Source of the DNA: Buxus sempervirens
Lineage: Eukaryota > Streptophyta > Magnoliopsida > Buxales > Buxaceae
Direction of reading: 5' to 3'
Assembly: GCA_947561395.2 (NCBI GenBank)
Contig: OX387193.1
Location: forward strand, 10,850,001 to 10,914,000
Length of the DNA: 64,000 nt
This document shows positions 2,207 through 64,000 of this stretch, piece after piece. The notes beneath the pieces are model-generated. The model saw only the letters and a program-made list of their open reading frames with translations. It was not told the origin of the DNA and searched no databases. The position numbers and the translations under genes are program-made. Every line of letters begins with the position of its first letter. The first letter of the stretch is position 1.

Positions 2207-2824
2207 GTATTAATATAAGTAAGACAATGAAGATAAGAAACACAATATATTAAGAAACAAAAATGACCTACAAATAGAAGGAAAGAACATTTTTTTTTTC
2301 AAAAAATGGAAAGATTTGAGATAACTTCAATTTCTAAAAATATAAATCAAATTAAGAATACTGGCAAAAATCCAGCTCAAAATGAATTTTCCTAACCCCT
2401 AAACGAAAGCAATCAATTCTTTTCTAAAATAGCAATTTTGTTAATTTGAGGGCCTAAATGAAGGAATTTGGCTGAAAAGCGGCGTATGTCATAACATAGT
2501 GTGAGTTTTGTTGCCCACATCGTTTCCAAGCAACCCACCAATTTTCAGTCAATTCTGAGCAAATTTGACAAAATTGAACAAAATGACCAAATTGCCCTTG
2601 AATCACAAATCAACTTTTGAAAGCTAGAATTGATCACAAAACTTCTACTATACTAATTAAACTCCTATAGACCTACTAAACATGCAATTATAACGCCGAA
2701 AAACAACACGAAACACAAAAGCACAAAGCACTAAATAAAGCAAACACAATAGCAAAATAGCAAAACCTAACAATACAATCTGAAGTAATGTAAGAAAATT
2801 TTTTATTGATATTAAAAACAATCC

Positions 2825-2842
2825 TCCCCGGCAACGGTGCCA
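2825..2842 (-). other. Primer binding site, tRNA-Asp type
   Basis: The minus strand reads TGGCACCGTTGCCGGGGA, which pairs with the 3' end of plant tRNA-Asp (GTC) except for one position (A where G is expected). It lies just inside the 5' LTR, as required for minus-strand priming. Confidence 0.85.
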
Positions 2843-2848
2843 AAAACT

Positions 2849-7108: not shown

Positions 7109-7340
7109 TGTTAAAGAATGAAGATGTGAATAAGAGAATTTTCTCTTATTTTCTATGGATATCAATGTACAAGTATTGTGGGATATTTATATAGCTAAAA
7201 GCTAATCTATTCTAGGCAACCTTTATACAGGGAAACAATTACAGTTACAGATCCTATAATCAAGCTAATTCTTAATCATTTCCAAACTGAACCCTTTCCA
7301 TTAATAAATCCTTTCTATGCACTGATGCTTTCTGTTAATA
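7109..7340 (-). repeat. 3' LTR of the copia element (232 bp)
   Basis: Plus-strand TGTTAAAGAATG... to ...GTTAATA, paired with 11719-11969. The polypurine tract abuts it at 7341-7350. Confidence 0.9.
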
Positions 7341-7350
7341 CTCCCCCTCA
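7341..7350 (-). other. Polypurine tract of the copia element
   Basis: The minus strand reads TGAGGGGGAG directly before the 3' LTR, the expected place of plus-strand priming. Confidence 0.85.
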
Positions 7351-10300
7351 AAATGTAGTGTGTATGTCAATAATGCTGAACTTGTTAAGCAGGGAACGAA
7401 ACGCTGGTTGACCAAGTGGTTTGGTGAATATGTCAGCTAGTTGACAAGCTGAAGATACATGTGCTGTCACGATCGCTCCAGTTTGAATTCTTTCTCGAAC
7501 GACATGACAATCAATCTCAATGTGTTTGGTACGTTCGTGATAGACTGGATTGGCAACGATGTGAATTGCTGCTTGACTATCACACAACAGCTTGGCCGGT
7601 TGTGAGTGCTCAACTTGCAAATCATGTAACAAGTATTTAAGCCAAGTGAGCTCACATGTGATAGAAGCCATGGCACGATATTTTGATTCGGCTGAAGATC
7701 TTGATACAGTAGTTTGCTTCTTTGTCTTCCATGAAATGAGAGCTCCTCCAAGGAAAATGCAATAACCAATTATGGATCGTCTTGTGATAGAACATCTAGC
7801 TCAATCCGCATCACAAAATCCTGTTAATAATAAATTTCCTTTGGATGGAAAATGTAGACCTTGTCCTGGTGCTCCCTTTAAATATCTCAAAAGACGATGG
7901 ACAACATCGAGATGTGGTTTTCTTGGTTCCTGCATAAACTGACTTAGGGTATGGACCGAATATGAAATTTCTGGTCTTGTGATAGTGAGATAAATGAGCC
8001 GTCCAACCAACCGTCTATAGGTAGTCGGATTTTTTAACAAGTCCCCTTCCATAGTTGAGAGTTTAACGTTCTCTTCCATGGGTGTTGATGATGGTTTGGC
8101 CCCAAGCAATCCTGCCTCATCCAAGATATCAAGTGTGTATTTTCGTTGTGAGATAGAAATTCCATCAGTGGATCGTGCAACTTCGATGCCAAGAAAATAC
8201 CGTAGTTGACCGAGGTCTTTAATGCGAAACTTGGTGTGAAGAGAATTTTTGAGTACGGTAATAACATTGTCGTCGTTACCGGTGATGATCATGTCGTCTA
8301 CATAGATGAGTACGGCTGTGAAGGAACTGCCAGATGCCTTGATAAACAAGGAATAATCAGCTTTCGATTGATGGAATCCATCTTGCTGGATGACGGTAGA
8401 AAACTTGTGAAACCAGCTACGGGAAGCTTGTTTGAGTCCATAAAGTGACTTGTTGAGTCAACATACCAGATGCTCCCCCTGTCGATGAAAACTGGGTGGT
8501 GGTTTCATATACACTTCTTCAAGTAAGTCGCCGTGTAGGAATGCATTTTGGACATCCATTTGGTGGAGTGACCAGTTGCGAACTGCTGCCACAGCAAGTA
8601 GGCAACGAACAGTGGTTAATTTGGCGACAGGAGCAAATGTTTCTTTGTAATCAATCCCTTCACGTTTGTTGAAGCCCTTTGCTACTAATCGAGCTTTGTA
8701 GCGTTCAACCGTGCCGTCCGATTTGTGTTTAATCTTGTAGACCCACTTACAGCCGATAGGACGATGTTCAGGAGGGAGAGCGGTAAGTGTCCATGTCTGA
8801 TTTTGTTCAAGAGCTGTGAGTTCGACAGCCATAGCCTCTCGCCATTTAGGATCCAAAACAGACTGTTCATAAGTTACAGGTTCCACAAGAGTAGTGATAT
8901 TACAGATAAAATGCCGATAATTAGGAGAAAGTTGTGCATAAGAGAGATATCAAAGTAATGGGTGACGCGTACCTGACGAGGAAGTTGATGGACTAGTAGC
9001 AACCATGGCCATATTGTAGGTATGAAAGTTGCGGAGTTGGACGTTTGGTTGTTTGACATGATTGGAACGACGAAGACAAGGGGTGGTGGAAGTTGGTTGG
9101 TCCATGGGATTGGGGAGAGTGATGGAAGTTGGTTGCTCCATTGAAGTATCAAGAGACGTGGTATCATCAAGGGATGGGGTTTCAGGAAAAGAAGGTGCGT
9201 TATGTGGATGTGCGGGACTCAGGATGGTTGGGAGTAAACAAGTTGAGGTCTCAGAAGTGTGTGGTAAGGGTAGAACGACCCCATCTTGTGGGTCCTCTTC
9301 AGAGGCATGATATGGAAAAACATTCTCATAAAAGAAAACATCCCGGGATGAGAAAAATTTATGTGTGACAATATCATAAACCCGATAACCTTTTTGACCA
9401 AGAGGATAGCCAACGAATATGCAACGTTGAGCTCATTGGTCGAATTTGTGGGTGGGTGAAAGATTGGTGGCATAGCAAAGACACCCGAAAGTGCGAAGGT
9501 GAGTATATGTGGGCTATGTTTTGTGAAGCAGTTGGTATGGTGATTTGTAAGAAAGGAGGGGTGTCGGTAAACGGTTGATCAAATAGCAAGCTATTTGGAC
9601 ACTTTCTCCCCAAAATTTTAATGGTAAGTTTGCTTGGAAACGTAAAGCCCTCCCCACATTCAAAAGATGACGATGTTTTCTCTCAATGACTCCATTTTGT
9701 TGGGGAGTCGAAGGACAAGAATAATGAAAGATAATGCCTTTTGTACCTAGAAATTGTTGCATAGATACAAATTCAGCACCATTGTCGGCACGAAGGGTTT
9801 TGACATGGGCGTGAAATTGTGTTTCAACCCAAGAAATGAATGATTGTAAGATCTCTTGTGTTTCCGATTTAAAACCCATTTGATGTATCCAAGTGTACCT
9901 TGTGAAATCATCAACAATCGTTAAAAAATAACGAGCTCCAGAATGAGAATTTATTCGATGTGGCCCCCAAATATCACAATGGATTAAATGAAAAGGTGCA
10001 TGCGAAGAAATTGAACTAGATGGAAAAGATAAACGAGTCTGTTTGGCTAAATGACATATTTCACAAATATGGTGGGAATCAAAATAAATTTCAGAATTTA
10101 TCTTGGTGAGGGTTTGGAGAGGTCCAAAGGATGGGTGTCCGAGACGTTGATGCCACAAGTTGGATTGTTTGCGGATGTTGTGAGGTAAGATTGGATTTTG
10201 GTCTTGTGCTAGGTAGTAAAGACCATTATGTTGCTTGCCCAGGCCAATCATCTTCCTCGTAGCATCGTCCTGCACAACACAAAAATGTGGAAAGAATATC

Positions 10301-11634
10301 ACTACACATTTTAACGCTCGAGTCAATTTGCTAACTGATAGTAAATTAACTTGAAATTGTGGAACTTTAAGCACTTCATCAAGTTTGATGTGTGGTGTAA
10401 CTTGTAATGAACCAATAGATGTAATGTTCGTTTGACCACCATTTGGCAACTGAATGATGGCTGTTTTTGGCAAATACTTCGGATCTATCAGTTCACTTGA
10501 GGAGGTCACATGGTCCATGGCTCCACTATCAATAATCCAACATAAATTTGATTGTGGAGCGATTGAGGGTGTGTTAATACCTGTGGCATTTGCAAAGTGT
10601 TGTGGATTACCATCATTGATTTTCCGAAGCATGCTCATTAGCTGATTGTATTCTTCAGTAGTGAGTCTTGGTCCTTCATTAGAAGAGGCTGGTTTGGCAT
10701 CAATATCCGCTCCAATATTTGGTTCAATCGTCGAGGCTATGGCGTTTGAACGTTTCTGGTTTGGGGGTTTCACTTTCTTTCCATGGAGTTTGTAACCTAT
10801 CGGAAAACCATGAAGAAAGTAACATCTTTCGATGCTATGATAGTCTTGATCACAATAAGAACAGTGAAGTGTGTTCTTTTGTTTCTGAGCACGATGATCT
10901 TGTCTGCCTACCTTATTGTTGTAATCTGCGAGCATGGCATGATGGTTCACAGTACCACGGTTGATAGAAACTTCAACTTGCTTCTCTTGTTGAAGGACAA
11001 GTGAATAAACCCGACGTGTATCGGGCAGTGGCTGCATTAGTAAAATTTGTCCACGAATCGCGGCATATCCGTCATTAAGACCCATGAGAAATTGCATGAC
11101 TCTCTCCTTCTCATCCCTTTTGTTGAGCTTTTCCAACCCACCACAAGAGCAGGTTAGTGTATCGTGATATGACGAGAGTTCGTCCCAAAGAGCCTTTAGT
11201 TTGGTATAGTATATGGAGATGGACTGCTGCCCTTGTCTGTGCTCCACGATTTCACGTTGGATTTGGTAAATTCGTGAGTCATTTCCTTGAGAGAAGCGTT
11301 CTTGCAGATCAGCCCAAACTTCAGCCGCTGTTTCAGCATATATGACGCTGCTTGCTATGTCGGGATGAATAGAGTTTAATCGCCATGACAAGACCATGTC
11401 GTTGCATCTTTGCCATGAGGGAAATGTGGCATCTTTCTGGGAATGCTGTTTGATCGAACCAGTGACGAATCCGATCTTGTCTTTAGCGCTTAGGCTAATT
11501 CGCATGGCACGACTCCATGTACCATAATTGTCTCCCTCAAGTAGCTTGGAGACAAGTATAATGCCTGGATGATCTGAGTGGTGTAGAGGGTATAGATCGG
11601 AGTTGTCCGATTTGTCGCTTGCTTGGCCTTCCAT
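7348..11634 (-). pseudogene. Copia gag-pol polyprotein frame with five premature stops
   Basis: A single frame of 1429 codons runs from the Met at 11634 (MEGQASDKSD) to 7348 with no net frameshift. In order: UBN2-type Gag; zinc knuckle CSYCDQDYHSIERC (CX2CX4HX4C, about residue 260); protease IIDSGA (about 370); GAG-pre-integrase motif LWHQRLGHPS; integrase core with HCDIWGP, LRADNGAEF and ERKHRHLL; reverse transcriptase with [25 protein letters not shown] and [10 protein letters not shown]; RNase H with [13 protein letters not shown] and [14 protein letters not shown]. Stops lie at 9514-9516, 9433-9435, 8950-8952, 8458-8460 and 7801-7803. Each looks like one transition in a Gln, Arg or Trp codon. 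The copy cannot make its own pol enzymes, though Gag to integrase is nearly intact. Confidence 0.9.
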
Positions 11635-11706
11635 GATAACACTGACAGTAGTAGATGACGGTGATGTGCGGAAGTGTTGGTGGGTTACAGAGTCACCAGT
11701 TTCGAT

Positions 11707-11718
11707 GCTCTGATACCA
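11707..11718 (-). other. Primer binding site, tRNA-iMet type
   Basis: The minus strand reads TGGTATCAGAGC immediately inside the 5' LTR, complementary to the initiator tRNA-Met 3' end. Confidence 0.92.
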
Positions 11719-11969
11719 TGTTAAAGAATGAAGATGTGGGTAAGAGAATTTTCTCTTATTTTCTACGGATATCAATGTACAAGTATTGTGGGATATTTAT
11801 ACAGCTAGAAGCTAATCTATTCTAGGCAACCTTTATACAGGGAAATAATCACAATACAGAGAATCAATTACAGTTACAGATCCTATAATCAAGCTAATTC
11901 TTAATCCTTTCCAAACTGAATCCTTTCCATTAATAAATCCTTTCCATGCACTGATGCTTTCAGTTAATA
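11719..11969 (-). repeat. 5' LTR of the copia element (251 bp)
   Basis: Pairs with 7109-7340. It carries about 19 extra bases near 11848-11868, which look like a local duplication of neighbouring sequence. TSD ATCTC follows at 11970-11974. Confidence 0.9.
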
Positions 11970-12142
11970 ATCTCCTGTCCCCAATGTGACAACAACAGCG
12001 ATATGATTAAACAATTGGGCCAGCACAACACGACACAATGGCAAAACTCAACCATGTCTAGGCCAGCATGGCATTGCCCATATGACATGCCTAAATAATA
12101 TTGAAAAAATGTCTCTGCACCCAACATACATGGAAGGCTCAC

Positions 12143-12300
12143 TTTCTCAGGATCCCCACCCTTGTCAGGATGATTTGTCAAAGCAGCTTTTCTATATGCC
12201 TTCTTGAGCTCATCTTGACTTGCATTTCCTGAAACACCCAGAATCTCGTACTCGTAGTACTTGGTGTTGTCACTCTTCTTCTGAGCACGCCCAAACATGA
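12143..12300 (-). CDS. DnaJ co-chaperone (type A, J-domain), first coding exon
   Basis: From the Met at 12298 the exon encodes 52 residues beginning [16 protein letters not shown] and containing the J-domain with the catalytic HPD at 43-45 (NHPDKGG). That motif stimulates the Hsp70 ATPase. The exon ends GAGAAA before a donor GTGAG at 12142, the place where plant type-A DnaJ genes (ATJ2/ATJ3-like) are commonly interrupted after GGDPEK. The 5' side has an acceptor (TTTTTCAG, 12301-12303) two bases before the ATG. A 6-bp duplication adds a second Tyr-Glu (YYEYEILG), absent from the partial copy at 63.7 kb. Later exons are not seen: the next intron holds the copia element and perhaps the LINE and Athila element, so the rest of the gene is off-window or lost. 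Function of this copy is doubtful. Confidence 0.75.
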
Positions 12301-13956
12301 CTGAAAAACTTTAAGTTTTAATATCACGTATGCATTAGCGAGGCTGATCTGCGATCCCACTCGTAGTACTATAATGTTATTCTGAAAGCCAAGGTAGAAA
12401 GCAACAAATCAATATGATAATAGCCGTGTACAGAATGCAATTATAATATTAGAAACAAGTAAGCCACACACCCAAAATACCAAAGGTATAGCTGCTATGA
12501 AGCCACCCAAAAAGAGTTGGGAAAATTTCAAATCCGACCGTCTTTTGAAAAGTAAATACAAAAACAGATGTTGAAAAGTCTTTCCTACCGAAACATGCAA
12601 CTTTTCAAAACTATTTACCAAGTGATCCAAAAACACTGTAGCATATTTCGAAGACCCCATTTTGCCCTTCCCTCTTCGTTCGACTGAAACACCCATCGGT
12701 TCATCTTCTCATTTTTGCAAAGCGATTAGGTGCGAAACCATGAGTGATACAATGAACCCCAAAGTGACGGTGAGGCTTGTTCTCGGCGTTGGGCGACAAC
12801 CGTTGTCATCACTGGCGCTTCCGATTGAGAGGGGTTGACCGACATTGTCATCTCTTTCGTCTCTCGTTTGTAGGAGGTCACCGGCGCTTGAGATCTGGTG
12901 GAAGCGGTTATAGTGTGCAATTTTCTTCTGTCTGTCGGAGAAGAAAACGGCAGTAGAGAGCCTTGACGAAGCACTTCAACTAGACATTTCCCTTGTTAGA
13001 GGTTGTGAGCAAATCTCCTTAAGGTAAGAACCGATTGTCCTTAATCTGTTTGCTTTTTAGAATGAAAATTTTTTGGTCTACATTTTTGTTAGGTTTCCAT
13101 CCATGATGTGGTACATTTCGTTTAGTTATGGATAATCTAACCTTAGTCTCTGAATCGATGCATTTCAAATGCTTGAAGAAATTCTCGAATGAATCGGAAC
13201 GTGAACACCATGTAATTTTGGATATGGTGTTCGTAATGCCCATTTTTTAATAAAAAAGTTTAGTTGAATGGTTGATTCGACACACCCATTTTATCTGTAT
13301 TATTTTCTTTGTGATTGCAAGGATGCTATTAATGGTTGTAGACATCCCAAAATTGTACGATTTTTGATAAATCTTGAAGGAGAGAAATATTTTATTGGAA
13401 TTTTCAATTCTTTGCATTGGGTTTGAGATCCTTAACCCATTTGAATCCAAAACCGTAAAGGAAAAAGGCCCGAATTCAATCTTTTGTGCAAAGTCAAACT
13501 TTTTCCGGTTGAATTTTGTTGACTTTTGACCCCAGAAAATGAAATATTTTTTAAAGCAAGATTTCAAGATAATTTTTCCCGGTAATCAGGTTTTTAGCAA
13601 TGTTATTGCATAAATGAATTTTTTGAGATTTTAAATCTTGACGAATACCTTGGTTTTTAATATATTGAACCTTTTTTCCAGACCTGAAAAACCGGAATTT
13701 TGCCTTAAACTGAAAAGTTGACTTTTTATTCACTAGGAATTTGGATCTGAAACTATTTTTAATGGATTCAAATTGGGGGGGGGGGGGGGTGTTTGCTTAT
13801 TTACATGTAATATCTTAAGTAAATGAAGATTAAAAAATACGAGGACATTTACTTAAACGATATTACATGTAAATAAGTATTGCCTGTGCAGGCAAGGGTC
13901 AGTGCCATGCAGAAGCTGTGCAGAGAAGCTTTTTTGGTGCAGAGAAGCATTTTTAT

Positions 13957-14024
13957 TTGTATCCGACATTATATGTCGGATACAAGCTTTTTGCTTTGTA
14001 TCCGACCTAAGTTGTCAGATACAA
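13957..14024 (+). promoter_or_regulatory. Pair of 29-nt palindromes upstream of a TATA box
   Basis: 13957-13985 is a perfect 13-bp stem with a 3-nt loop around TTGTATCCGACAT. 13996-14024 repeats the outer stem with one mismatch and a 7-nt loop. Start-to-start spacing is 39 nt. The TATA box lies 162 nt downstream. Confidence 0.7.
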
Positions 14025-14185
14025 GTATTTTTTGCTCAAAATTGAGTAAATCCGAGGGTTTTTCACTTTTTTTGTTGTTTTACCATCTTTATGAAGTGGA
14101 AATCTCGGAAATAGCCTTAGGGTTAAGTGAGGGGGGTTCTCGACATCATTTTGTGTCTAGCATCATGCAAACCCTAATCTTTGCC

Positions 14186-14193
14186 TATAAATA
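14186..14193 (+). promoter_or_regulatory. TATA box of LTR family 1 (left copy)
   Basis: TATAAATA within CCTATAAATAGGAGG, shared with the inverted copy at 18343-18350. A CAG|GTAAGC donor-like site follows 101 bases downstream. Confidence 0.65.
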
Positions 14194-16424
14194 GGAGGCT
14201 CCTCCTTAAGCAAATGGCCATAAGTTGGAGATTGAAGAGCTCTAAGTGAAGAAGGGAACCGCTGCCGGACTGCTTCCAGAACCCAGGTAAGCCTCCAACC
14301 TTTCCTTTATTTTCCTGTTTTTACATTCTAGATCTAGATCTCTTCTTCTACCTTTCTGTAGAATAAGGCCTATGATGTGTGTATGAAAACCCTTCCCTTA
14401 CTCAAAGTATCTCAAGACTCCCCCTAGCCGTAAAACGTGAAGGCGAGATCTAGGAGAAACGAGACTGGGGATTGATCCTAGTTCTAGAACCTATTTGAAT
14501 AAGCCTTTTGAATCATTGAAAACCGTTTCATATTCAAAGTACCCCAAGATTATCTTGAAGAATCGTGTTTAACGGGGAGAGAGAACTAAGGGAAACGATA
14601 ATGAAACGGAACCCTAGACTTTTAAAACCCTATTTTGATGAATATGAATGCATGCTATCTTTGCTATATTGTTCTTGAATGATTTTTACACTTACACATA
14701 CATAGCACGTGATTTTGATGGGATAGGCTTGTATTTAGGATTTATTGTGTTCGTTGTAATAAATCTGAAATAAATGGCCTCAAGCAATTTTGGAATGTTT
14801 TTAAATGGTTTTTAAAGGATTCTGATTCATCTTGCACGGATTGCACACACTTTATCACTGTTTTGGTTTGGTTTTACTCAAGAAAGGCTTAACTTGACAG
14901 CAACTGTACCCCAACTTCGGATGCTCATAACTTCATCATCTGGATGAATTTTGGAGTGATTCCAGAACCATGGGAAAGGTGAGGCTGTATAGTTTATGCC
15001 TCCCAAATTTCATTAATTTCTATGAAGCAGATTTCTGACACCATTCTGTCGAAGTTGAGAGGTCAGTTCAGGTCAAACTGTTGAACCTATCACTTCGAAT
15101 GGGCGCCATCTGCTTGTTTTAAATCCGATTCGAGTGAGTTTTGTTTCTGGGAACTCCTTTATGAGTCTATTTTCAAATCCAGTTTGTTTCATAATTTTTT
15201 GATTTAATTTGTGTCGTGGGTAGCAGATTTACTCAGAACTACTCAACAGCACTTTTCTGGGTTAATCTGTGATCCTCGGGGCCTTTTCGGAAAGTCACCC
15301 AAGGCACATCAGAATGAATTTTTGTATGAGGCTAGTTTCTTTTGAAAGATGGCCATACATACTTCATTTACACCAAATTTCATGGATTTATATGAAGCTG
15401 ATTTTGTTAGGTGATTTTCCAAACTTGCCTACTTGTCACTTTTGATTATCTCCAGCAGCAACTTTAAAAGAGGCATAATTCATAGGATTTCAACCGGATT
15501 TAATTGAAATTTTGCATGAGCCTTTTATTTATCATAATATTTCAAATGGATTTGGTTTGATTCAATTTAAATTGGATTTGAATGATTTCAAGACAAATGG
15601 TTCTTGCTTTTACCGAATTTTCCAGATTTGACTCAACTTGGTTTTGTGCAACTTTTGCTTTGATTTCCATCTTTTGGTGATATTCCAGAAATGATATTGA
15701 CATAAAAGAGGATCTGGAATTCATTTGGATTTTCATGTGAAGATATCATACATTTGTCCTTTTTCAAGGTTTTTAATATTTTTAGCAAGTTTTCTTATTT
15801 CTTTAGCATGAGCAACACTTGGCAACCACTTTGTGTTGGTGAATGGGGGTGCCTAACACCTTCCCCCGTTTATAATCTAATCCCCTTACCCATCTCTGGA
15901 TTTTATTTTCAAGTAGGGTTATTTTTACTCTAGATTTGTCTTTTGCTTTTTTTTACGGTGTCCATTCACACCCTAAACGCTGAATGGTGGCGACTCCCAC
16001 GTTTTATTTGTCGAGCCCGTGTGTTGACGGAGGGGGAATCACCCCTGTGATTTTTCCATGTCTCACAATGGTATGGGAAGATATGTAACATCTTGGATTT
16101 GCAGTATCTTACTTATTAATGTGGTTTTCCTAATTTCCCATATTTTGTTATTTGTTATGGTTCATCTTGATTGTTTTATTTGAGTTGTCTAATTTTTGTG
16201 GCATTTTATTTGCTGTTTTATTGTGCTTTATTTCTTGCCATGATAACTGTTGTGAATTAGCTTGGCTTTCTGTGCAAGATTGAGTTTCAATTTATTTTAG
16301 GCATATTATATTGGATTATTCAATGGTGTGATTGTATGCATTAATTATTTGGCTTGGTGTTTTATTTTGATTTGTTTTGTATTATGCATGGTCCGGCTTG
16401 TTTTGAGTGGATCTGCTTGGTTAT

Positions 16425-18738
16425 TGTGAGACATGGGAAAAAATCACCGGAGTGATCATCCCTCCGTCAACACACGGGCTCATCGCAAAAGTGGGAGAGT
16501 CGCCACCATTCATGATTTTGGGGTGAGAATGGACACCAAAGAGTTCAAAAATAAGCAACAATAGCCAAAAGACAAATTCTAGGATAAAAATAATCCTACT
16601 TGAAAATCAAATCCGGAGATGGGTAAGGAGATTAGATTATGAACGGGGGAAGGTGTTAGGCACCCCCATTCATCCACACGAAGTGGTTGCCAAATGTATG
16701 TTCATGCTAAAAAGAAAAATAAGAAGCTTGCTAAAAATCATGAAAAAGCCTTGAAAAAGGAACAAGTATATGATATATTCACATGAAGATCCAAATGGAT
16801 TTTAGATCCTCTCTTATGTCAATATCATTTCTGTAATATCTCAAAAGACGGAAATCAAAGCACAAGTTGCTAAAAAAACCAAGTTGAATCAAATCCGGAA
16901 AATTCGGTAAAAAGTATGCCATTTGCCTTGAAATCATTCAAATACCATTTTAAATTGAACCAAACCAAGTCCATTTGAAAGATTAGGGTAAATAAGAGTC
17001 TCATGCAAAATTTCACTTCATTCCGATAAAAATCCTAGGAGTTATGCTCATTTGAAGTTGCTGCTGGGGATTTTTAAAAGTGGTAAGTGGGCAACTTTGG
17101 AAAATTGTCTAGAACAATCCACTACATAAAAGTCCACGAAAATTGGTGTGATTGAAGCTTGTATGGCCATCTTTCAAAAGAAACTAACCTCATACAAAAA
17201 TCCCTTCGGATGTGCCTTGGGTGATCTCCCGAACAGGCCCCGAAGATCACAGATTCACCCAGAAAAGTACAAATGAACAGTTCTGAGTAAATCGGCTACC
17301 AATAATTTAAATGGAATTCAAAAATTATGAAACCAACTGGATTTGAAAATAGACTCATAAAGGAGTCCATAGAAACAAAAATCACTCGAATCGGACTTAA
17401 AACGAACACATGGCGGTCCGTCGAAGTGACAAGTTCTGTATTTGAACCTGAACTGTCCACTCAACTTCGACAGAGAGGTGTCAAAAATCCGCTAGATAGA
17501 AATTTGTGAACTTTGGTGGACATAAACTAGACAGCCTCACCTTTCCCATGGTTCTAGAATCACCCCAAAATTCATCCGGATGATGAAGTTATGGGCGTCC
17601 GAAGTAAGGGTACAGGTGCTGTCAAGCTAAGCCACTTTTGGAGAAAACCAAATCCGAAAATTGACAAAAAGTGTGTGATTCGTGTGAGATGAATCCAAAA
17701 CCTTTGAAAAACATTTTAAAACACTCCAGAATTTGATTGAGGCCATTTATTGGAGATTTATCACAATGAATGTAATAAATCCCCAAATGTGAGCCTATTC
17801 ACCAAAAAAAGTGTAATATGTGTGCAATAGTGAAAAACCAAGCAAGATTAATACAACAATATATCATGCATATAGATTCAACAAAATAGGTTCTAGCATA
17901 GCCTAGGGTTCCGTTCCATTATCGTTTCCCTCTGTTCTCTCTCCCCGTTAAACACGGATCTTCGAAATAATCAAGGGTACTTTGATTATAGAACGGTTTT
18001 CAATCATTCAAAAGCCTTATGCTACATGGGTTCTAGCACTAGGGTCAATCCCCAGTCTCGTTTCTCCTAGATCCGCCTTCACGTTTTACGGCTAGGGGAG
18101 TCTTGAGATACTTTGAGCCGGGGAAGGATCTCCACACACACATACAAACAAGGCTTTACACTACAGAAAGGTAGAAGAAGAGATCTAGATCTAGGAATGT
18201 AAAGACAGAAAATAAAAAGAAAAGTTGAGGCTTACCTGAGTTCTGGAGGCGATTCCACAGCGGTTTTCTTCTTCTCTTGGAGTTCTTCTTTGCGAGAATT
18301 CAAAACAAGAGTTGAGTGCCATTTGCTCAAAGAGGAGGCTCCTATTTATAGGCAAAGACTAAGGTCATTGGTAGACACAACTTAATGTCTAGAACCCCTC
18401 CAACCTTAACCCTAAGGTTATTTCCGCGATTTCCCCTCATTTAATGAGGGACATGATGGTAAAAGTGAAAAGCTCTCGGAAAACCCTAATTTTGAGCAAA
18501 CTTAAGGTATCCGGTATGTCAGACCGGATAAAAAAGGGCCTTAAGGTATCCGGTACATGGTACCGGATACACTAAGGCTCACATGTATCCGGTATGAGTA
18601 TCCGGATACGGGAAGGAGTACTTGTATCCGGATTGAGTATCCGGATACAGGTAAAAGTTTATTTTCTTCAAATTCTGTGCTGGCTCTCCAGGAGATAATG
18701 ATTTTTGATGATTGTTTGTGGAATTTGGGGTGTCTACA
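16425..18738 (-). mobile_element. Single LTR (family 1), inverted, in the left MULE arm
   Basis: 2314 bp, TGTGAGACATGG... to ...GGTGTCTACA on the plus strand, with TSD GTTAT at 16420-16424 and 18739-18743. The empty site is present in the right arm near 27160. It is related to 13337-16067 but read in the opposite direction. TATA (TATAAATA, minus) is at 18343-18350, a donor CAG|GTAAGC at 18236, and four palindromes lie upstream of the TATA. The two copies are not the LTRs of one element, because they are inverted and have different TSDs. Confidence 0.85.
18506..18650 (-). promoter_or_regulatory. Four palindromes spaced about 39 nt, upstream of a TATA box
   Basis: Stems built on GTATCCGGT or GTATCCGG start near 18506, 18545, 18584 and 18623. 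Each is about 25-27 nt with a loop of about 5-9 nt. Spacing is regular at about 39 nt. The stem core (ATCCGG) differs from that in the 13.3 kb copy (ATCCGAC). Confidence 0.7.
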
Positions 18739-19856
18739 GTTATGTTAGGTTGAGGCTGCTTAGATGCTCTTGGTTTGCTCTATGATTAGTCTCTATTATC
18801 GTTTACCTGTACATCAGGGCATTCATTTGGAAGCATAAAACTCATGGTTCGGCTTGTTTTGAGTGGATCTGCTTGGTTATGTTAGGTTGAGGCTGCTTAG
18901 ATGCTCTTGGTTTGCTCTGTGATTAGTCTCTATTATCGATTACCTGTGCGCCAAGACATTCATGAGCGTTGGAAGCATAAAACTTCTTCCCCTATATTCC
19001 TCTGCTCTTGTATGCCTTGTTTCTCTTGTACTTTTGGTGGTGGTGAGCTTTTTGGGCGGATTGAGAGATTGGGAGCTCGCTTCGATTATTTGTGTTTTTG
19101 GTGCTTTTCTCCTTGATGTAAGCTTCAACATTTTCTTGGATTTATATGTAAATATGGTTAAACAATGAAGTGTGTTCCGTTTCACTTGATTTTTGGGGAA
19201 TAGTTTTAGGTTCTTCTGCAACTAACTTCTAGTGTCTTTGGAAGAAATTCCTCAATCCTCTCCTTTGTTTGCTTATACATTCAAGAACCACTTATTTGGA
19301 ATTTTCTATGAATCACATGCAAGTTCTATCTTAATTTACTTTATTTATACTACTATTGAAACAACGTAGATAAATTAAACAAGAAGGAAAATGCTTACAA
19401 TAATAGATAAGTTAGATTTAACATAAAGCAAGACTGATGTATCCTTACTTTATTCTTACAAGACACGGACGAGGTACGAAGCAACGGGTGTCGTTAAAAC
19501 TGTGCCTTGTGCAATGTCGAGAACATCTATTGTCATCACAAGTTCCCTTATATAGGTCGGTCTTTGAGTATAAAGGATGTTTCTTTGTGAAATATGCTTG
19601 CACAAACATAGGACCCATATCTTTTGTCATATCTAAGATAAAATTCATATTATTCTATATTTTTATTAACGTATTTTCCTCTCTTTACTATTCAGTTCAT
19701 ATGTTTGATTTTGACCAAGTTGATTAAGGTGCTCATGGTATAGGTTTGTGTGGGTAGATAATTGATAGCCTAAGTTGTTATTTCGAGTAGTTTATATTAA
19801 TCATGTATTTGCTCACCTTGTTAACATGTTATATGGAGTGCAATATGCCACAACCA

Positions 19857-20150
19857 CCCCCGGAGAATTCGTTGTTTTGCTACTTTCATATAGATGGAGA
19901 GATAGTTATAGAGCAAGAAAAGTTTGTATCATACCTGGGAGAGGGGGGGGGGGGGGGGGAGTCGTTTAGATGGATTCAATATAAGTGGTAATATATAGTA
20001 CGATCAATTTGTAAGTGATGCCTGTAATTTATTTGAGATATCTCTAGTGGGTTTGTTTATGAAGTACTCCCTTATGTACAATAAGAGTGCATTACTTCCA
20101 CTTTCTGGTACATTCTTCTATTGTCAGGAGGTGGCTGGTCGGCTAGAGCA
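19857..20150 (+). pseudogene. Possible MuDR-like transposase N-terminal fragment, left arm
   Basis: The frame gives FCYFHIDGEIVIEQEKF, then a poly-G run (about 19944-19960) that shifts the frame, a stop, then YDQFVSDACNLFEIS and a stretch with MKYSL and LLPLSGTFF. This pattern (short beta-rich start with DGEI, then YDxFVSxxC and a VLLPL-type segment) resembles the N-terminal region of plant MuDR-type transposases. The catalytic core is absent. The match is from memory and moderate. The mirror copy is in the right arm. Confidence 0.4.
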
Positions 20151-20589
20151 CATGCAGAAAGAGTTACAAATAATGAGTGATGCATATCGGAGATCCATCA
20201 CTATTATAAGAGACGCATATGGAGGTTGCAATACTAGAGCTGATAAAGGTATAGGTGACTGAGATGTTATTACGTGGTTGGAATATTTTTTTTGGATTGA
20301 TTATATGTGCTTGCTAGTGACCAAGATGAATTCATTTGAATTGCAGGTACGTAAAGAGTTGCGATGGAATATATCGGATGTGGAGCAGAGCTTTATGATT
20401 GCGACTTTCAGCTACATGTTTCCATGTATTCATTTATGTAATTAATGGAGCATATGTATTTGGGATTTTTGTATTGTGATTACCCCAAATGTGGTGGATT
20501 GTCAGTTTTTTGTATGACAGTTGTGGTTTTTTCACAAATTGTAGATGTTCTTTGAATATAAATAAAATTTTTTGCAACAATTGAAATGA

Positions 20590-23010
20590 CATAAGCGATT
20601 ACTCAGTTGTCCAAAATTTGTTTGAAATCGATTGCATGCAATTTGTCTATAACGGTTATTTCTCATGTTTCGATTAATGATGTGTCAATAACACATAGAC
20701 CTCTGATGATATGAACTCAGAATTTTGAATCGTGAATTAATAGATTAATCATGAAAATATTGGTTAATCGAGGCGTTGTTATGATTATCCGGTAGTAATT
20801 TTATGCAATGGCCGAAGTGGTTAATCGGCACATTTTGATTAGTCGAGTGTTAATCTTGCAATGAACTTCAGAAAAACAACCAACTGTAACTCTAATCGAC
20901 AAATTATCGATGCACCTTAAAAATAGCGATTAATCGGGAAATAGATACGATTAATCGGTACTAATTGAATGCCATGCGCCCAGTTGTTCATCGGCAATAT
21001 CCGATTAATCGACGGTTAATCCTGCAATTAGTCTAAGAAAAACAACACTCTGTGATTCTAATCGAGATTTTCTCGATTAATCTAAAAAATAGTGGTTAAT
21101 CAAGAATTAGATACGATTAATCGGTCATCATTGAATTCAATGCGACCAGTAGTTCATCGGCAAGGTTCGATTAATCGAAGTTTAGCGTTCAATTGCCGAT
21201 TAACCAACAAATCACTAATTTTATCATTAATCGAGTTACTTCCGATCAACGAATAGTTAAACAACCTAACTTTGATAATCGCCAAATATACGATTAATCA
21301 ATACGTTGCCGATCATTGAAATTTCAAACAACCCATGTAGGTTATCGGCAACTACACGATTAATCAATGTATAGCCGATCAAATGACAGCCAACCAACCT
21401 TTCATCGTAGGATACCATCTCATTATTCAGGTTGGTCACACGAACATCTATAAGTATCCATCGATTGCCTAAAGAATATCCTACAAAGCAAGATTTGTAT
21501 CCTCGATGCTAATAAGATATCCTCATTAACTTTACGGATATAATTGTAGTAATTGTAGGATACCATCTTATGCTTCGTGATTGTTCAACGAAGAACTATT
21601 AGTATCCCTCGATTAATAGAATTGTATCCCACAACTATAAATTGTATCCTTTGATTCATAGAATTGTATCCCATGACATAGATTAATTGAAATTTAAAAC
21701 CTTGATGAACATTTCGATTTCAATGAAATTCGTTGATTAATTAGAAATATTAACGATCAACAGTCCATGCTTCGGGTGATTGAACTTGCAATTTGTATCC
21801 TCGATGCTAATAAGATATCCTCATAGACCGTTGATCGTTAATATTTTTGATTAATCAACGAATTTCATTGAAATCGAAATGTTCATCGAGGTTTTAAATT
21901 TCAATTAATCTATATCATGGGATACAATTCTATGAATCAATGGATACAATTTATAGTTGTGGGATACAATTCTATTAATCGAGGGATACTAATAGTTCTT
22001 CGTTAAACAATCACGAAGCATAAGATGGTATCCTACAATTACTACAATTATATCCGCAAAGTTAATGAGGATATCTTATTATCATCGAGGATACAAATCT
22101 TGCTTCGTAAGATATTCTTTAGACAATCGATGGATACTTATAGATGTTCGTGTGACCAACCTGAATAATGAGATGGTATCCTACGATGAAAGGTTGGTTG
22201 GCTGTCATTTGATCGGCTATACATTGATTAATCGTGTAGTTGCCGATAACCTACATGAGTTGTTTGAAATTTCAATGATCGGCAACGTATTGATTAATCG
22301 TATATTTGGCGATTATCAAAGTTAGGTTGTTTAACTATTCGTTGATCGGAAGTAACTCGATTAATGATAAAATTAGTGATTTGTTGGTTAATCGGCAATT
22401 GAACGCTAAACTTCGATTAATCGAACCTTGCCGATGAACTACTGGGTGCATTGCATTTAATGATGACCGATTAATCATATCTAATTCCCGATTAACCACT
22501 ATTTTTTAGATTAATCGAGAAATCTCGATTAGAATCACAGAGTGTTGTTTTTCTTAGACTAATTGCAGGATTAACCGTCGATTAATCGGATATTGCTGAT
22601 GAACAACTGGGCGCATGGCATTCAATTAGTACCGATTAATCGTATCTATTTCCCGATTAATCGCTATTTTTAAGGTGCATCGATAATTTGTCGATTAGAG
22701 TTACAGTTGGTTGTTTTTCTGAAGTTCATTGCAAGATTAACACTCGACTAATCAAAATGTGCCGATTAACCACTTCGGCCATTGCATAAAATTACTACCG
22801 GATAATCATAACAACGCCTCGATTAACCAATATTTTCATGATTAATCTATTAATTCACGATTCAAAATTCTGAGTTCATATCATCAGAGGTCTATGTGTT
22901 ATTGACACATCATTAATCGAAACATGAGAAATAACCGTTATAGACAAATTGCATGCAATCGATTTCAAACAAATTTTGGACAACTGAGTAATCGCTTATG
23001 TCATTTCAAT
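20590..23010. repeat. Centre of the palindrome: dense CGATTAATCG-type motifs and a 68-nt loop
   Basis: Both halves are filled with short variants of CGATTAATCG (itself a palindrome) and of GGATACAATTCTAT, spread irregularly. The loop at 21762-21829 itself resembles sequence in the arms (TGTATCCTCGATGCTAATAA also at about 21497). No open frame of note. It behaves like a degenerate short-motif array rather than a gene. Confidence 0.6.
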
Positions 23011-23211
23011 TGTTGCAAAAAATTTTATTTATATTCAAAGAACATCTACAATTTGTGAAAAAACCACAACTGTCATACAAAAAACTGACAATCCACCACA
23101 TTTGGGGTAATCACAATACAAAAATCCCAAATACATATGCTCCATTAATTACATAAATGAATACATGGAAACATGTAGCTGAAAGTCGCAATCATAAAGC
23201 TCTGCTCCACA

Positions 23212-25523
23212 TGTAAAACCCCGAATTTTTGTTATTTATTTTTAAGGAAATAATTAATAAATTATTTATTTATATAGTGTTTTTTTTAGGTGAAGATTAT
23301 TCAAGGACAATTTGGGAATTTTATAATTTTGAACTTATGTAAAATTAAGGGTAAGTGTGTTTATATTATAGATTATAGTGAATAAATACTATTTAGAAAC
23401 TTTATTTGAAATGAGTAAAGTGGTGTTGATTTTTTTTTAGTAGCTAATTAATTGAATAAGGGTTGATAGGATGTTAGTGTAGGGCTTTCAATGGTGGAGC
23501 ACTGCATCGGAATATGAAGAAGATGAAATGTTTTGCGACCGTAATAATAAAGGTCTATCCCAACGTTCAGAACAGTTACGGACTGTTCACTTTCTGAGAA
23601 ACCTAAACAGCGAAACATTAGATCTGAATTTTGGGTATTGGATCATCACGGATGAGTGAAGTTATTGACTAGGAGAAAAGAAGAGAGTGCTATCTAATTC
23701 AGTTTGATCAGAAATTCAGTATGTCGAAGGAGTTTTAGGTTGCTAAAGAATCTGATTAGAAGTTGATCTCTATCGAATTTGGATTAGCAACAATCAGGCA
23801 AGTAGCATCTTCATCTGTCTTGTTTTATTTGCATGTTCTATATTCTGTTAGAAGTTTTCTGGGTTAAGAATAAACATCGTGTTATGTTCATGTTTTGGAT
23901 CGTAAAAGTTATAGATCCTTTTAAGTTTGGTTGGATTGAATTCAAGAGTGTTTATAAATACTATTTGGATGTTTGTGAAGAGATTAGATGAGAGTTGAAG
24001 AGGGAAATAAGGTTCTGTTATTGAGGTTTTCCATTTACCGTAAATATTTGTGAAACTGGTGCCAACCTAATGGACCTGGCGCCAACCTCAAAGAGGTTAG
24101 CACCAGACCTTGAATTTGCCCATCGCTAAGTGAAAATACCTGGTGCCAACCTCACCACCAGGTTAGCACCAGATGATGTGGGTTAGCGCCAGACCTAATT
24201 TCATTGCAGCCTTGCGGCTGTTGTGATTCTTTGATTGGAACTAATTTTTAACACCTGCATCAAGTTTAAATGAGTGGATTAATGTATTGTAATGCACTGT
24301 TAATCATAGGATTGAATTAGTGGGATGAAATTATAATTTCAACACTGAATAAATCAGTGTTTTTCGGAAGTCTTGTGTTTTAGTGATATTGAATGCAAGG
24401 ACAAGGTTTGGGAAATACTAATTGTGGAAACTTGAGATGTTTCTGAATTTTATTGAGACCAGCATATCGTCACTTATAGAAATTATCATGTATGGTAAGG
24501 TTCCGGGCAAAATTGATCTTAGAATTAAGTGTTGATAAAAATTGGAGTTCTAATCTAAGGGTGTAGTCATTGGGATTATGGGATTTGAAATAATCTTTAT
24601 TTGTTTTGCTTAACATGTAATTATAAATCTGATCTGTGTTTGATTATGGATTAACCGAGTGTTTATTTGTTTCTGGTTTGATGACATGGTGACTATTCTT
24701 AAATTAGGTATCAAATGCTGTATTTCCTGTTGGAAGGTTTTAGTGAGTAAATGAATCTGAATTTGATATTGTTCATGATAAAATGTTTTCTTTTACTACA
24801 AGCATGATTTATAATACATTACATTATATATCAGAACATGTCCCGACATAATAGGGCGAGACGTAGTGTGGATCCACAATCGAGTTGTAGTGAATATTGT
24901 ATGTTTTGTTTGGATTTAAGTCTGGAGTTCCTTCATGCGTTTCCTCCATGATGGAGAGGCCTTCCATGAGGGAAGCGCTGCAGCAACTCCGTTTCCACCA
25001 TGATGGTGAGGTCACTTGAGTAATTCCGTCATGAGGGCGATGATATTGGATGTTCGAGCTGTTGCAGTGTTAGACTGGATTGTCTGGAACTCTAGTGCTT
25101 AGCCACACAAAATAGACAAACTTCACGAGTCCCAATATATATAATATTTTCCGAAGTCTGATTTGGATAAGAATTGTGATTGACGATGTATCTTCGAGAT
25201 TAGACGGATTACCCGTGGTTAATCGTCGTGTATTTTAGTCGTGCATGTTTAGAAATTAAATTAAGTATATTTGTGCATGCATTGCTACTTGTTGAGATAG
25301 TCGTATCTCACTGTTTTGTTTTGATTTCAGATATATGAGAGGACGATACAGGGGGTATATGCTTGTTTTCAGGTGAGTTGGGGAAACCTTTTTAGTTGAC
25401 TCTGATTAGATTATTGTTTACTTTCATGTTGTCTTTCACTCTGATAGCGATCCTGTGTGAAAATCTAACTCCTTGGGAACGAGTTACGGTTTATTTCACG
25501 TAACCCGGTTCTGGGGCGTTACA
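23212..25523 (+). mobile_element. Single LTR (family 3, Tekay/Del-like) in the right MULE arm
   Basis: 2312 bp, TGTAAAACCCCG... to ...GGGGCGTTACA, TSD CCACA at 23207-23211 and 25524-25528; the left arm has the empty site near 20370. The start resembles the LTR of the gypsy element at 36551 (TGTAAGACCCCG). No coding region or partner LTR is present, so it is a solo LTR. It contains a possible GC-type donor (CAG|GCAAGT, 23798), an acceptor TTTGATTTCAG ending at 25330, and the hairpin TGAGATA-GTCG-TATCTCA at 25293-25310. Confidence 0.85.
24058..24199 (+). repeat. Palindromes with a GGTGCCAACCT core in the 23.2 kb LTR
   Basis: CTGGCGCCAACCT-caaag-AGGTTAGCACCAG is followed by CTGGTGCCAACCT-caccacc-AGGTTAGCACCAG, plus single half-sites before and after. 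Stems are 13 nt with short loops. This is the family 3 counterpart of the palindromes in the other LTRs, with an unrelated core. Confidence 0.65.
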
Positions 25524-25754
25524 CCACATCTGATATATTCCATCGTAACTCTTTACGTACCTGCAATTCAAATGAATTCATCTTGGTCACTAGCAAGCGC
25601 ATATAATCAATCCAAAAAAATATTCCAACCACGTAATAACATCTCAGTCACCTATACCTTTATCAGCTCTAGTATTGCAACCTCCATATGCGTCTCTTAT
25701 AACAGTGATGGATCTCCGATATGCATCACTCAATATTTGTAACTCTTTTTGCAT

Positions 25755-26055
25755 GTGCTCTAGCGGACCAGCCACCTCCTGACAATCGAAGAATGTACCA
25801 GTAAGTGGAAGTAATGCACTCTTATTGTATATAAGGGAGTACTTCATAAACAAACCCACTGGAGATATCTCAAATAAATTACAAGCATCACTTACAAATT
25901 GATCGTACTATGTATTACCACTTATATTGAATCCATCTAAACGACTCCCCCTCCCCCCAGGTATGATACAGACTTTTCTTGCTTTATAACTATCTCTCCA
26001 TCTATATGAAAGTAGCAAAACAACGAATTCTTCGGGGGTGGTTGTGGCATATTGC
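25755..26055 (-). pseudogene. Possible MuDR-like transposase N-terminal fragment, right arm
   Basis: Mirror of 19857-20150. It gives FNISGN, a stop, YDQFVSDACNLFEIS, then the segment ending LLPLTGTFF. The C/G run is much shorter here (near 25950), so the frame relation differs between arms. Same caveats as for the left copy. Confidence 0.4.
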
Positions 26056-28330
26056 ACTCCATATAACATGTTAACAAGGTGAGCAAATGCATGATTAATA
26101 TAAACTACTTGAAATAACAACTTAGGCTATCAATTATCTACCCATACAAACCTATACCATGAGCACCTTAATCAACTTGGTCAAAATCAAACATATGAAC
26201 TGAATCGTAAAGAGAGGAAAATACGTTAATAAAAATATAGAATAATATGTATTTTATCTTAGATATGACAAAAGATATGGGTCCCATGTTTGTGCAAGCA
26301 TATTTCACAAAGAAACATCCTTTATACTTAAAGACCGACCTATATAAGGGAACTTGCGAGGACCATAGATGTTCTCGACATTGCACAAGGCACAGTTTTA
26401 ACGACACCCGTTGCTTCGTACCTCGTCCGCGTCTTGTAAGAATAAAGTAAGGATACATCAATCTTGCTTTATGTTAAATCTAACTTATCTATTATTGTAA
26501 GCATTTTCCTTTTTGTTTAATTTATCTACGTTGTTTCCATAGTAGTATAAATAAAGTAAATTAAGATAGAACTTGCATGTGATTCGTAGAAAATTCCAAA
26601 TAAGTGGTTCTTGAATGTATAAGAAAACAAAGGAGAGGATTGAGGAATTTCTTCCAAAGACACTAGAAGTCAGTTGTAGAAGAACCTAAAACTATTCCCC
26701 AAAAATCAAGTGAAACGGAACACACTTCACTGTTTAACCATATTTACATATAAATTCAAGAAAATGTTGAAGCTTACATCAAGGAGAAAAGCACCAAGAA
26801 CACAAATAATCGAAGCGAGCTCCCAATCTCTCAATCAGCCCAAAAAGCTCACCACCACCAAAAGTACAAGAGAAACAAGGCATACAAGAGCAAAGGAATA
26901 TAGGGGAAGAAGTTTTATGCTTCCAACGCTCATGAATGCCTTGGCGCACAGGTAATCGATAATAGAGACTAATCACAGAGCAAACCAAGAGCATCTAAAC
27001 AGCCTCAACCTAACATAACCAAGCAGATCAACTCAAAACAAGCCGGACCATGAGTTTTATGCTTCCAAATGAATGCCCTGATGCACAGGTAAACGATAAT
27101 AAAGACTAATCATAGAGCAAACCAAGAGCATCTAAGCAGCCTCAACCTAACATAACCAAGCAGATCCACTCAAAACAAGCCGGACCATGCATAATACAAA
27201 ACAAATCAAAATAAAACACCAAGCCAAATAATTAATGCATACAATCACACCATTGAATAATCCAATATAATATGCCTAAAATAAATTGAAACTCAATCTT
27301 GCACAGAAAGCCAAGCTAATTCACAACAGTTGTCATGGCAAGAAATAAAGCACAGTAAAACAGCACATAAAATGCCACAAAAATTAGACAACTCAAATAA
27401 AACAATCAAGATGAACCACAACAAATAACAAAATATGGGAAATTAGGAAAACCACATTAATAAGTAAGATACTGCAAATCCAGGATGTTACATATCTTCC
27501 CATACCATTAATAGCATCCTTGCAATCACAAAGAAAATAATACAGATAAAATGGGAGTGTCGAATCAACCATTCAACTGAACTTTTTTATTAAAAAATGG
27601 GCATTACGAACACCATATCCAAAATTACATGGTGTTCACGTTCCGATTCATTCGAGAATTTCTTCAAGCATTTGAAATGCATCGATTCAGAGACTAAGGT
27701 TAGATTATTCATAACTAAACGAAATGTACCACATCATGGATGGAAACCTAACAAAAATGTAGACCAAAAAATTTTCATTCTAAAAAGCAAACATATTAGG
27801 GACAATCGGTTTTTACCTTGAAGAGATTTGCTCACAACCTCTGACAAGGGAAATGTCTAGTTGAAGTGCTTCGTCAAGGCTCTCTACCGCCGTTTTCTTC
27901 TCCGACAGACAGAAGAAAATGGCACACTGTAACCGTTTCCACCAGATCTCAAGCGCCAGTGACCTCCTACAAACGAGAGACGAAAGAGATGACAATGTCG
28001 GTCAACCCCTCTCAATCGGAAGCGCCAGTGATGACAGCGGTTGTCGCCCAACACCGAGAACAAGTCTTGACGTCGCTCTGGGGTTTGTTGTATTGCTCAT
28101 GGTTTCGCACCTAATCGCTTTGCAAAAATGAGAAGATGAACCGATGGGTGTTTCAGTCGAACGAAGAGGGAAGGGCAAAATGGGGTCTTCAAAATATGCT
28201 ACAGTGTTTTTGGATCACTTGGTAAATAGTTTTGAAAAGTTGCATGTTTCGGTAGGAAAGACTTTTCAACATCTGTTTTTGTATTTACTTTTCAAAAGAC
28301 GGTCGGATTTGAAATTTTCCCAAAAGAGTT

Positions 28331-28880
28331 TGTTAAACATTTCTCTACTCCAAAAGCCTTAAGGAAGATACTGTTAACAATCAATGACAACACATAACGT
28401 TTCTCAATTGAGGGAAAGAAAAGGAAAATCTTCTAAATTCAAAATAAAAGTCCTGAAAATAAAAGAAAATTCATCGCAATAGCTATTTCGAAAAGAAGAA
28501 CAAGAACAAGAACATGATACAAACCCTAGATTGAAACCCCTAAATGCAACTCAAGAACTCCATATCAATCCCAACAAACAATCAAATTTAAATCAAAACC
28601 AGTGGAGCTCAAACAACCAACATAACATCAAAACACATAAAGAACAAATCTAGTAGCACTAATATCCCATAGATCCATGGAACAATTAGAACAAACAAAC
28701 GCCAATGAGATCGTAGAAATCAAGCCAAATACACCCAGAAGGATCAATAGTAAAAGGGAAAAAAAATATAAAATCCAACCTCGTAAGAGCCCAATGTCAA
28801 AGTTAGTTTCAATCGATTGAAACAACAAAAATCGAATCAAACACGACTAAAACATAGATAGAGAGAGAGAGAGAACTTAC
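28331..28880 (-). other. Upstream part of the DnaJ 5'UTR intron
   Basis: AT-rich sequence with no coding signal. Its first 46 bases (to 28376) match the end of the window (63955-64000). A (GA)n run lies at 28858-28874 next to the donor. Confidence 0.5.
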
Positions 28881-32997: not shown

Positions 32998-33283
32998 GGA
33001 TGCTCTATCACAAAGTACTGCAAATGCAGTTGCTACTAGTTATTTTACCTGTGTTGGTCGTTAGAAAGATTCAGGTATTTATAGACCAGGAGCACATGCC
33101 TCGTCGCTCTCATTCCCATGTGCAAATTCAATGAATTATGAAATGTTGTAGTCATACTTCTTAAGTCGTGTCGTTAATAACTTGGCTAGCTAGCTTGGCT
33201 AAAGAGGGTAAAGTTTTTCCATTCTTCTCTAGCATGGTGACATGGTTAAAGATACCTTAAAATTCTTCAATAGCATTAAACTT
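32178..33283 (-). repeat. Segment duplicated at 53724-54826
   Basis: Covers part of intron 2, exon 2, intron 1, exon 1 and the promoter of the beta-expansin. Similarity to 53724-54826 is continuous and high, introns included, so it is a DNA duplication and not a retrocopy. Confidence 0.88.
33076..33083 (-). promoter_or_regulatory. TATA box of the beta-expansin gene
   Basis: The minus strand reads TATAAATA about 80 bases upstream of the start codon. It is conserved in the duplicate at about 54625. Confidence 0.7.
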
Positions 33284-63661: not shown

Positions 63662-64000
63662 TCATCTTGACTTGCATTTCCTGAAACACCCAGAATCTCG
63701 TAGTACTTGGCGTTGTAACTCTTCTTCTGAGCACGCCCAAACATGATTGAAAAACTTAAAGTTTTAATATCATGTATGCATTAGCGAGGCTGATCTGCAA
63801 TCCCACTCGTAGTACCATAATGTTATTCTGAAAGCCAAGGTAGAAAGCAACAAATCAATATGATAATAGCAGTATACAGAATGCAATTATAATATTAGAA
63901 ACAAGTAAGCCACACACCAAAAATACCAAAGGTAAGCCACCCAAAAAGAGTTTGTTAAACATTTCTCTACTCCAAAAGCCTTAAGGAAGATACTGTTAAC
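63662..64000 (-). pseudogene. Partial DnaJ copy with intact (empty) MULE target site
   Basis: Minus-strand exon sequence from the Met at 63744 gives [20 protein letters not shown] and runs to the break at 63662, inside exon 1. Upstream, the 5'UTR intron (63747-64000) is collinear with 12303-12518 joined directly to 28331-28376. The site AAAAGAGTT is present once (about 63945-63953), with no MULE. Relative to the 12.2 kb copy it lacks the 6-bp YE duplication and has a 12-bp difference near 63932. The copy continues past the window end. Its J-domain is cut before HPD, so it is not functional as seen. Confidence 0.85.

Follow-up and report, generated by a model that had tools for sequence, protein, structure and literature searches.

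A probable foldback Mutator-like element with 4.2-kb inverted arms in a putative DnaJ intron of Buxus sempervirens

The stretch of Buxus sempervirens DNA considered in this article (contig OX387193.1, positions 10,850,001 to 10,914,000; 64,000 nucleotides, called the window below) carries the 5' end of a plant DnaJ copy on the minus strand and, between the leader and the first coding exon of this copy, a long palindrome bounded by target site duplications (TSDs). A second DnaJ 5' end, located at the end of the window, lacks the palindrome. An earlier note on this DNA had described a giant palindromic Mutator-like element (MULE) and proposed that its transcripts could silence the transposon family to which it belongs. 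The analysis described here makes it very probable that the palindrome is a non-autonomous foldback-type MULE of ~8.4 kb, nearly all of which consists of two 4.2-kb inverted arms, and that it was moved in trans and has since been ageing in the putative intron of the DnaJ 5' untranslated region (5'UTR). The features on which this reading draws are listed below with their window coordinates; three inserts resembling solo long terminal repeats (LTRs) are designated I1 to I3.

12519..28321, no strand assigned: foldback MULE-type element, delimited by self-BLAST, arm alignment and flanking TSDs
12510..12518, plus strand: left TSD, AAAAGAGTT, 9 bp, from the sequence
28322..28330, plus strand: right TSD, AAAAGAGTT, 9 bp, from the sequence
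12519..13336, plus strand: left arm, outer block, 818 bp, 27 differences from the right arm
16073..16424, plus strand: left arm, middle block, 352 bp, 5 differences
18744..21761, plus strand: left arm, inner block, 3018 bp
21762..21829, no strand assigned: loop separating the arms, 68 nt
21830..23211, minus strand: right arm, inner block, 1382 bp
25529..28321, minus strand: right arm, outer block, 2793 bp
13337..16067, plus strand: insert I1, solo-LTR-like, TG...CA ends, 5-bp TSD ATGGT
16425..18738, minus strand: insert I2, solo-LTR-like, TG...CA ends, 5-bp TSD GTTAT
23212..25523, plus strand: insert I3, solo-LTR-like, TG...CA ends, 5-bp TSD CCACA
20377..20992, plus strand: difference-free tract, left side, 616 columns (alignment columns 2803-3418)
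22598-23211 and 25529-25530: right-arm partner of this tract, reaching just beyond I3
12301..28880, minus strand: putative 5'UTR intron of the DnaJ copy, donor GTAAGT at 28880, acceptor AG at 12302-12301
12143..12298, minus strand: first coding exon of the plant DnaJ copy, J domain PF00226, E=3.4e-12
63662..64000, minus strand: paralogous DnaJ 5' end with an empty target site, a single AAAAGAGTT, element absent

The element spans 15,803 bp including the three later inserts, and its arms and loop together come to 8,431 bp. Counted without the inserts and without one TSD copy of each, the left arm (12519-13336, 16073-16424 and 18744-21761) totals 4188 bp and the right arm (21830-23211 and 25529-28321) 4175 bp. 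The inverted repeats make up nearly the whole element, with 8363 bp of arms against a 68-nt centre when the inserts are set aside, as is characteristic of foldback elements. Both ends open with GGGAAAATTTCAAATCC, and columns 1-130 of the arm alignment are identical. Blocks of arm against arm reach E = 0.0 in self-BLAST, and the palindrome is therefore not a product of chance. Self-BLAST and a global alignment of the arms, the kind of self-comparison that the earlier note had suggested as a check, place the palindrome exactly where the note had put it; the perfect termini, the 9-bp TSD, the lengths of both arms and the size of the loop were all exact, and the arms are indeed only a few percent apart, differing at 98 of 4175 aligned positions (2.35%) plus 3 indels.

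The flanks of the element provide a record of its arrival. AAAAGAGTT stands on both sides of the element, and in the paralogue at 63662-64000 both flanks are joined by one AAAAGAGTT, with neither the element nor a second TSD. This empty site identifies the element as a real insertion. Between the paralogue and the occupied locus there are 10 substitutions in 330 aligned positions (3.0%), plus indels of 6 bp and 12 bp, and this comparison makes it most likely that the DnaJ 5' ends had already been duplicated when the element arrived. Divergence between the arms (2.35% overall and ~2.75% outside the difference-free tract) is similar to or below that between the paralogues, which fits insertion after duplication, ten differences being too few for timing. 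The empty-site paralogue and the difference-free tract are additions to the content of the earlier note. A separate observation at the same place is a 12-bp insertion private to the occupied copy and within ~20 bp of the target site (12400-12518 compared with 63840-63952 of the paralogue), possibly the footprint of another transposon.

As regards the host gene copy, a pyrimidine-rich leader on the minus strand is followed by the GTAAGT donor, and the acceptor TTTTTCAG ends at 12301, 2 nt ahead of the ATG at 12298. From this donor and acceptor we infer that the 16,580-bp span between them is a DnaJ 5'UTR intron; with element and TSD subtracted, it would measure 768 bp. Matches to a DnaJ probe sequence cover residues 1-51 at the locus (E=8e-17) and residues 1-29 at the paralogue (E=3e-4). 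The exon at the locus has an in-frame 6-bp duplication relative to the paralogue, adding Tyr-Glu, and the paralogue is broken, its acceptor CAG reading CAA and its exon homology stopping after ~29 codons. No convincing later DnaJ exon was found in the window, where the next best probe match had E=1.7; either the copy is truncated or these exons would be found beyond the window. The DnaJ copy is uncertain as an active gene, and its leader and promoter region may be able to work. The description of the locus as a palindromic MULE inside a DnaJ 5'UTR intron is thus borne out for the MULE-type palindrome and for an intron-like setting with donor and acceptor; the gene itself is represented in the window only by its first coding exon.

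The three inserts appear to be solo LTRs, judging from their TG...CA ends and 5-bp TSDs. Every insert is confined to one arm, so that the inserts are younger than the palindrome. I1 and I2 share ~81% identity over 2.1 kb in inverted orientation and oppose each other across 352 bp, which creates a second, weaker inverted repeat within the left arm. For I1 in its three plus-strand frames and for I3 in all six, a search for coding domains gave a single row at E<=0.01. This row, an AAA-lid domain of I3 with E=0.0044, lies below the curated cut-off and was taken as chance.

MULEs have TSDs of about 9 bp, with a range of 7-12 bp (PMC9168764), and both the 9-bp TSD and the 4.2-kb arms, as long terminal inverted repeats (TIRs), agree with this class. 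Twelve read-through translations were used to examine the content of the arms: six represent the frames of the outer right arm, and 20300-23290 and 18744-20382 contribute three each. Through the palindromy they read the full arm on both strands, the outer two pieces of the left arm being covered only by way of their right-arm partners. In these translations no Pfam family matched at E<=0.1, and neither a MURA-type or other transposase nor a captured domain was recognised. Two of the six outer-right-arm frames were also compared with a protein database, using words from the first 500 residues and only proteins of 0.55-1.75x the query length, with no match at E<=0.001. A captured host-gene fragment, the trait of Pack-MULEs, was found neither by Pfam nor with the two protein-database frames, and domainless fragments in other frames could escape these searches. 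Each arm does have tandem sub-repeats of three periods (137, 148 and 166 bp), each in about two copies, and so shows the modular organization of foldback arms. Exact searches with the terminal 34-mer in a viral collection and with a 22-mer in a prokaryote collection gave no matches, as expected for such collections.

By their anatomy the arms suggest a foldback element and not one half of an autonomous MULE. The palindrome could also have arisen as a one-off aberrant inverted duplication of half an ordinary MULE, for instance by faulty gap repair, with no foldback family behind it. Such an origin would produce the arrangement found in Mu killer of maize, two like ends around an inverted duplication (PMC3440606), and the 17-bp terminus has no further copy in the window at up to 3 mismatches; against it, half an autonomous MULE might be expected to keep some transposase remnant in a 4.2-kb arm, and the tandem sub-repeats suit foldback TIRs. 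The one-off origin is possible, though clearly the less likely of the two, and it overlaps with the foldback explanation, the respective estimates not being mutually exclusive.

The subsequent history of the foldback element can be read from the differences between its arms. The 98 differences consist of 77 transitions and 21 transversions; two of the three indels are single-base, and all three lie in or adjoin single-base runs. The longest identical run covers 616 columns, its bounding differences being spaced 617 apart. When the spacing of differences was permuted 20,000 times, the longest spacing averaged 217 and reached 518 at most, with 0 of 20,000 permutations attaining the observed 617, and beyond this tract the longest run is ordinary (p 0.13). 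The tract starts 2 columns outside the insertion point of I3 (columns 2804/2805). It is a probable product of gene conversion from arm to arm that would have ended at I3; the link with the insert is suggestive, since the chance of a tract end falling so near one of three inserts is ~1/20 by a rough estimate. The differences also include a dense cluster near the element ends, with 12 in 60 columns (columns 226-284) and none of 5,000 permutations equally dense. All three TG/CA pairs of the arm fall inside this cluster, which suggests that shared CpGs decayed on opposite strands; a foreign patch was considered for the cluster and set aside, as the TG/CA pairs point to CpG decay instead. Over the whole arm, transitions affect 23 of 261 CG, 20 of 161 CHG and 34 of 1091 CHH sites (odds ratios over CHH of 3.0 for CG and 4.4 for CHG), an excess that suggests long-standing methylation. 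The observed/expected CpG ratio is ~0.9 in the arms and 0.55 in the window; it is uneven, from 0.14 to 1.95 per 300-bp bin, and greatest over the inner sub-repeat region, and no conclusion is based on it.

These data can be arranged in the following course of events. The DnaJ 5' ends would have duplicated first and the palindrome would have inserted afterwards, carried whole into the putative DnaJ 5'UTR intron by a MULE transposase supplied in trans. The arms would then have diverged to the ~2.75% seen outside the tract, partly through deamination at CG and CHG sites, and would have recombined with each other at least once, leaving a conversion tract that stops at I3. In RNA form the element would make a compound hairpin, with 1.38 kb of near-perfect duplex by the loop and, beyond it, blocks of 1.63, 0.35 and 0.82 kb with the inserts between them.

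Several points count against parts of this account. Neither a transposase in the arm translations nor a second family member in the window was found, and membership of the Mutator superfamily, although likely, therefore depends on two traits, the long TIRs and the 9-bp TSD. Assembly or polishing could have produced the identical tract as an artefact. The methylation-like bias was compared among three repeat pairs of the window: a pair at 32180 and 53724 shows it equally strongly (odds ratios 6.1 for CG and 4.5 for CHG), in the DnaJ pair the bias is present at CG, where sites are very few (3/15 against 2/92), and no such bias is seen between I1 and I2 (odds ratios 1.5 and 0.9, p 0.11 and 0.61). 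Because a comparison pair carries the same bias, it is not specific to the palindrome, and the methylation footprint was rejected as a specific sign of silencing driven by a hairpin.

The proposal of the earlier note concerns function and is compatible with the foldback explanation: on the model of Mu killer, read-through from the DnaJ promoter would yield a hairpin of several kilobases, whose small interfering RNAs (siRNAs) would silence the whole MULE family. The position of the element, intronic and downstream of a plausible leader and the GTAAGT donor, is favorable to it, and so is the pairing capacity of the arms. By the loop, 1383 columns form an inner duplex without large interruption, with 20 differences and one 1-base indel; further blocks of 1635, 352 and 818 columns, separated by inserts, have 46, 5 and 27 differences, and identical runs of at least 21 columns hold 3743 of the 4188 columns (inserts left out). 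Among the 98 differences, 30 would be G:U wobbles in minus-strand RNA and 47 in plus-strand RNA. The proposed double-stranded RNA of several kilobases is hence supported in so far as the long arms would pair if transcribed, and weakened in that the three inserts break the pairing. Comparable repeats are linked to small RNAs in the literature cited here: in rice, local small-RNA hotspots are associated with long inverted repeats whose arms measure ~1.3 and 7.4 kb (PMC7649420), and endogenous inverted repeats of Arabidopsis such as IR71 supply DCL2, DCL3 and DCL4 (PMC4687873). However, for an inverted repeat whose spacer measures 6.2 kb, hairpin formation was considered probably impossible (PMC7649420), the arms of the present element have no detectable transposase domain, and the later DnaJ exons were not found in the window. 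The maize precedent also argues against the read-through step. In the account of Mu killer consulted (PMC3440606), plants in which silencing failed had sense transcripts from read-through of the flanking gene, whereas silencing plants made short antisense transcripts from within the element; the flanking-gene model for the antisense transcripts was called disproved, and an additional action of minor longer transcripts via a long hairpin was left open. Perfect inverted-repeat transgenes are moreover prone to methylation and self-silencing, which mismatches relieve, and the arms of this element, at 2.35% mismatch, fall far short of the 18.2% and 21.5% wobble built into two G:U designs (PMC9263138).

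On this analogy the locus would be expected to be mostly silent and methylated; if 21-24-nt siRNAs arise at all, they should be few and target chiefly the element and close family members. Silencing of the whole family by read-through is unlikely. Still more doubtful is a variant in which the intron-borne foldback MULE is kept hairpin-competent by arm conversion and siRNAs from the intronic transcript silence the family in trans through shared terminal (promoter) regions, without transposase sequence. Least probable of all is that the palindrome, or at least the identical tract, results from misassembly or from polishing with mis-mapped reads: palindromes are difficult to assemble and the 616-column tract is abruptly identical up to an insert, but 98 differences and different inserts with proper TSDs in each arm are unlike a mirrored contig, and the outer TSD and the empty site agree with a true insertion.

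The window contains further features. In the putative second intron of the DnaJ copy, downstream, lies a Copia element (7109-11975) with LTR-like direct repeats at 7109-7346 and 11719-11975 and an open frame of 760 codons, the best match of which is from Rhododendron simsii (79% identity). At Rfam gathering thresholds, plant snoR71 at 1600-1706 was the only match in the window. A second large inverted structure occupies 44818-52622, with oppositely oriented LTR-like ends TGTAAGCACCTCA and TGCTTACA, paired blocks 82-83% alike and a retroelement RNase H fragment (PF17917) at its centre. An expansin C-terminal domain (PF01357) is found at 30983-31354, and 32180-33276 is repeated at 53724-54825, with 62 of 1097 positions differing; one frame of this repeat looks expansin-like by eye. 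The regions 30983-33276 and 53724-54825 may be what is left of a DnaJ-expansin array arranged in tandem. At 35422-36552 a 230-bp unit is repeated in tandem about five times (92% matches) and has a frame that seems protein-like, and a 108-bp tandem duplication at 55661-55878 is 100% identical, being probably very recent or an assembly effect.

The locus offers a natural long palindrome with a readable history, as the target site, the empty paralogue, the later inserts and a probable conversion tract are contained within one 64-kb piece. It can serve as a test case for the survival of kilobase palindromes in plant chromosomes and their upkeep by arm-to-arm conversion, and for whether intronic hairpins become small-RNA loci or silence themselves.

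Among known systems, the nearest are the foldback transposons, mostly of the Mutator superfamily (FARE of Arabidopsis, Tm1 of Meloidogyne, MuTAnT of Medicago and Tetris of Drosophila), which have long modular inverted arms as seen here. The TSD is 8-10 bp in Tetris and 9 bp in both Tm1 and the present element (PMC4079207, PMC3169594, PMC4486113), and Tetris is likewise apparently non-autonomous (PMC4079207). The elements differ in arm length, ~4.2 kb in this case compared with at most 1,735 bp in Tetris (PMC4079207) and 144 bp in the described MuTAnT copy (PMC4486113). Among the literature matches listed, taken by titles and abstract openings, no plant MULE with multi-kb palindromic arms appeared, which is not proof of absence. 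Pack-MULEs are non-autonomous MULEs like this element, in which a captured gene fragment was not detected within the searches made. Mu killer likewise has Mutator-type ends around an inverted duplication beside a gene, but its duplication includes ~1.3 kb of mudrA (PMC3440606), whereas no inverted duplication of transposase sequence was detected in the arms described here. The rice long inverted repeat with ~7.4-kb arms and a 278-nt spacer shares with this element the kilobase arms and short spacer (PMC7649420), and IR71 of Arabidopsis is described as a very long stem-loop siRNA source (PMC4687873). Unlike the rice repeats and IR71/IR2039, as far as these are described in the sources cited, the repeat is here a whole transposon with its TSD, interrupted by inserts. 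Foldback MULEs are already on record, as are plant small-RNA loci formed by inverted repeats that are about as large as this one or larger; the points of interest of this element are the length of its arms, the empty-site paralogue and the probable conversion tract.

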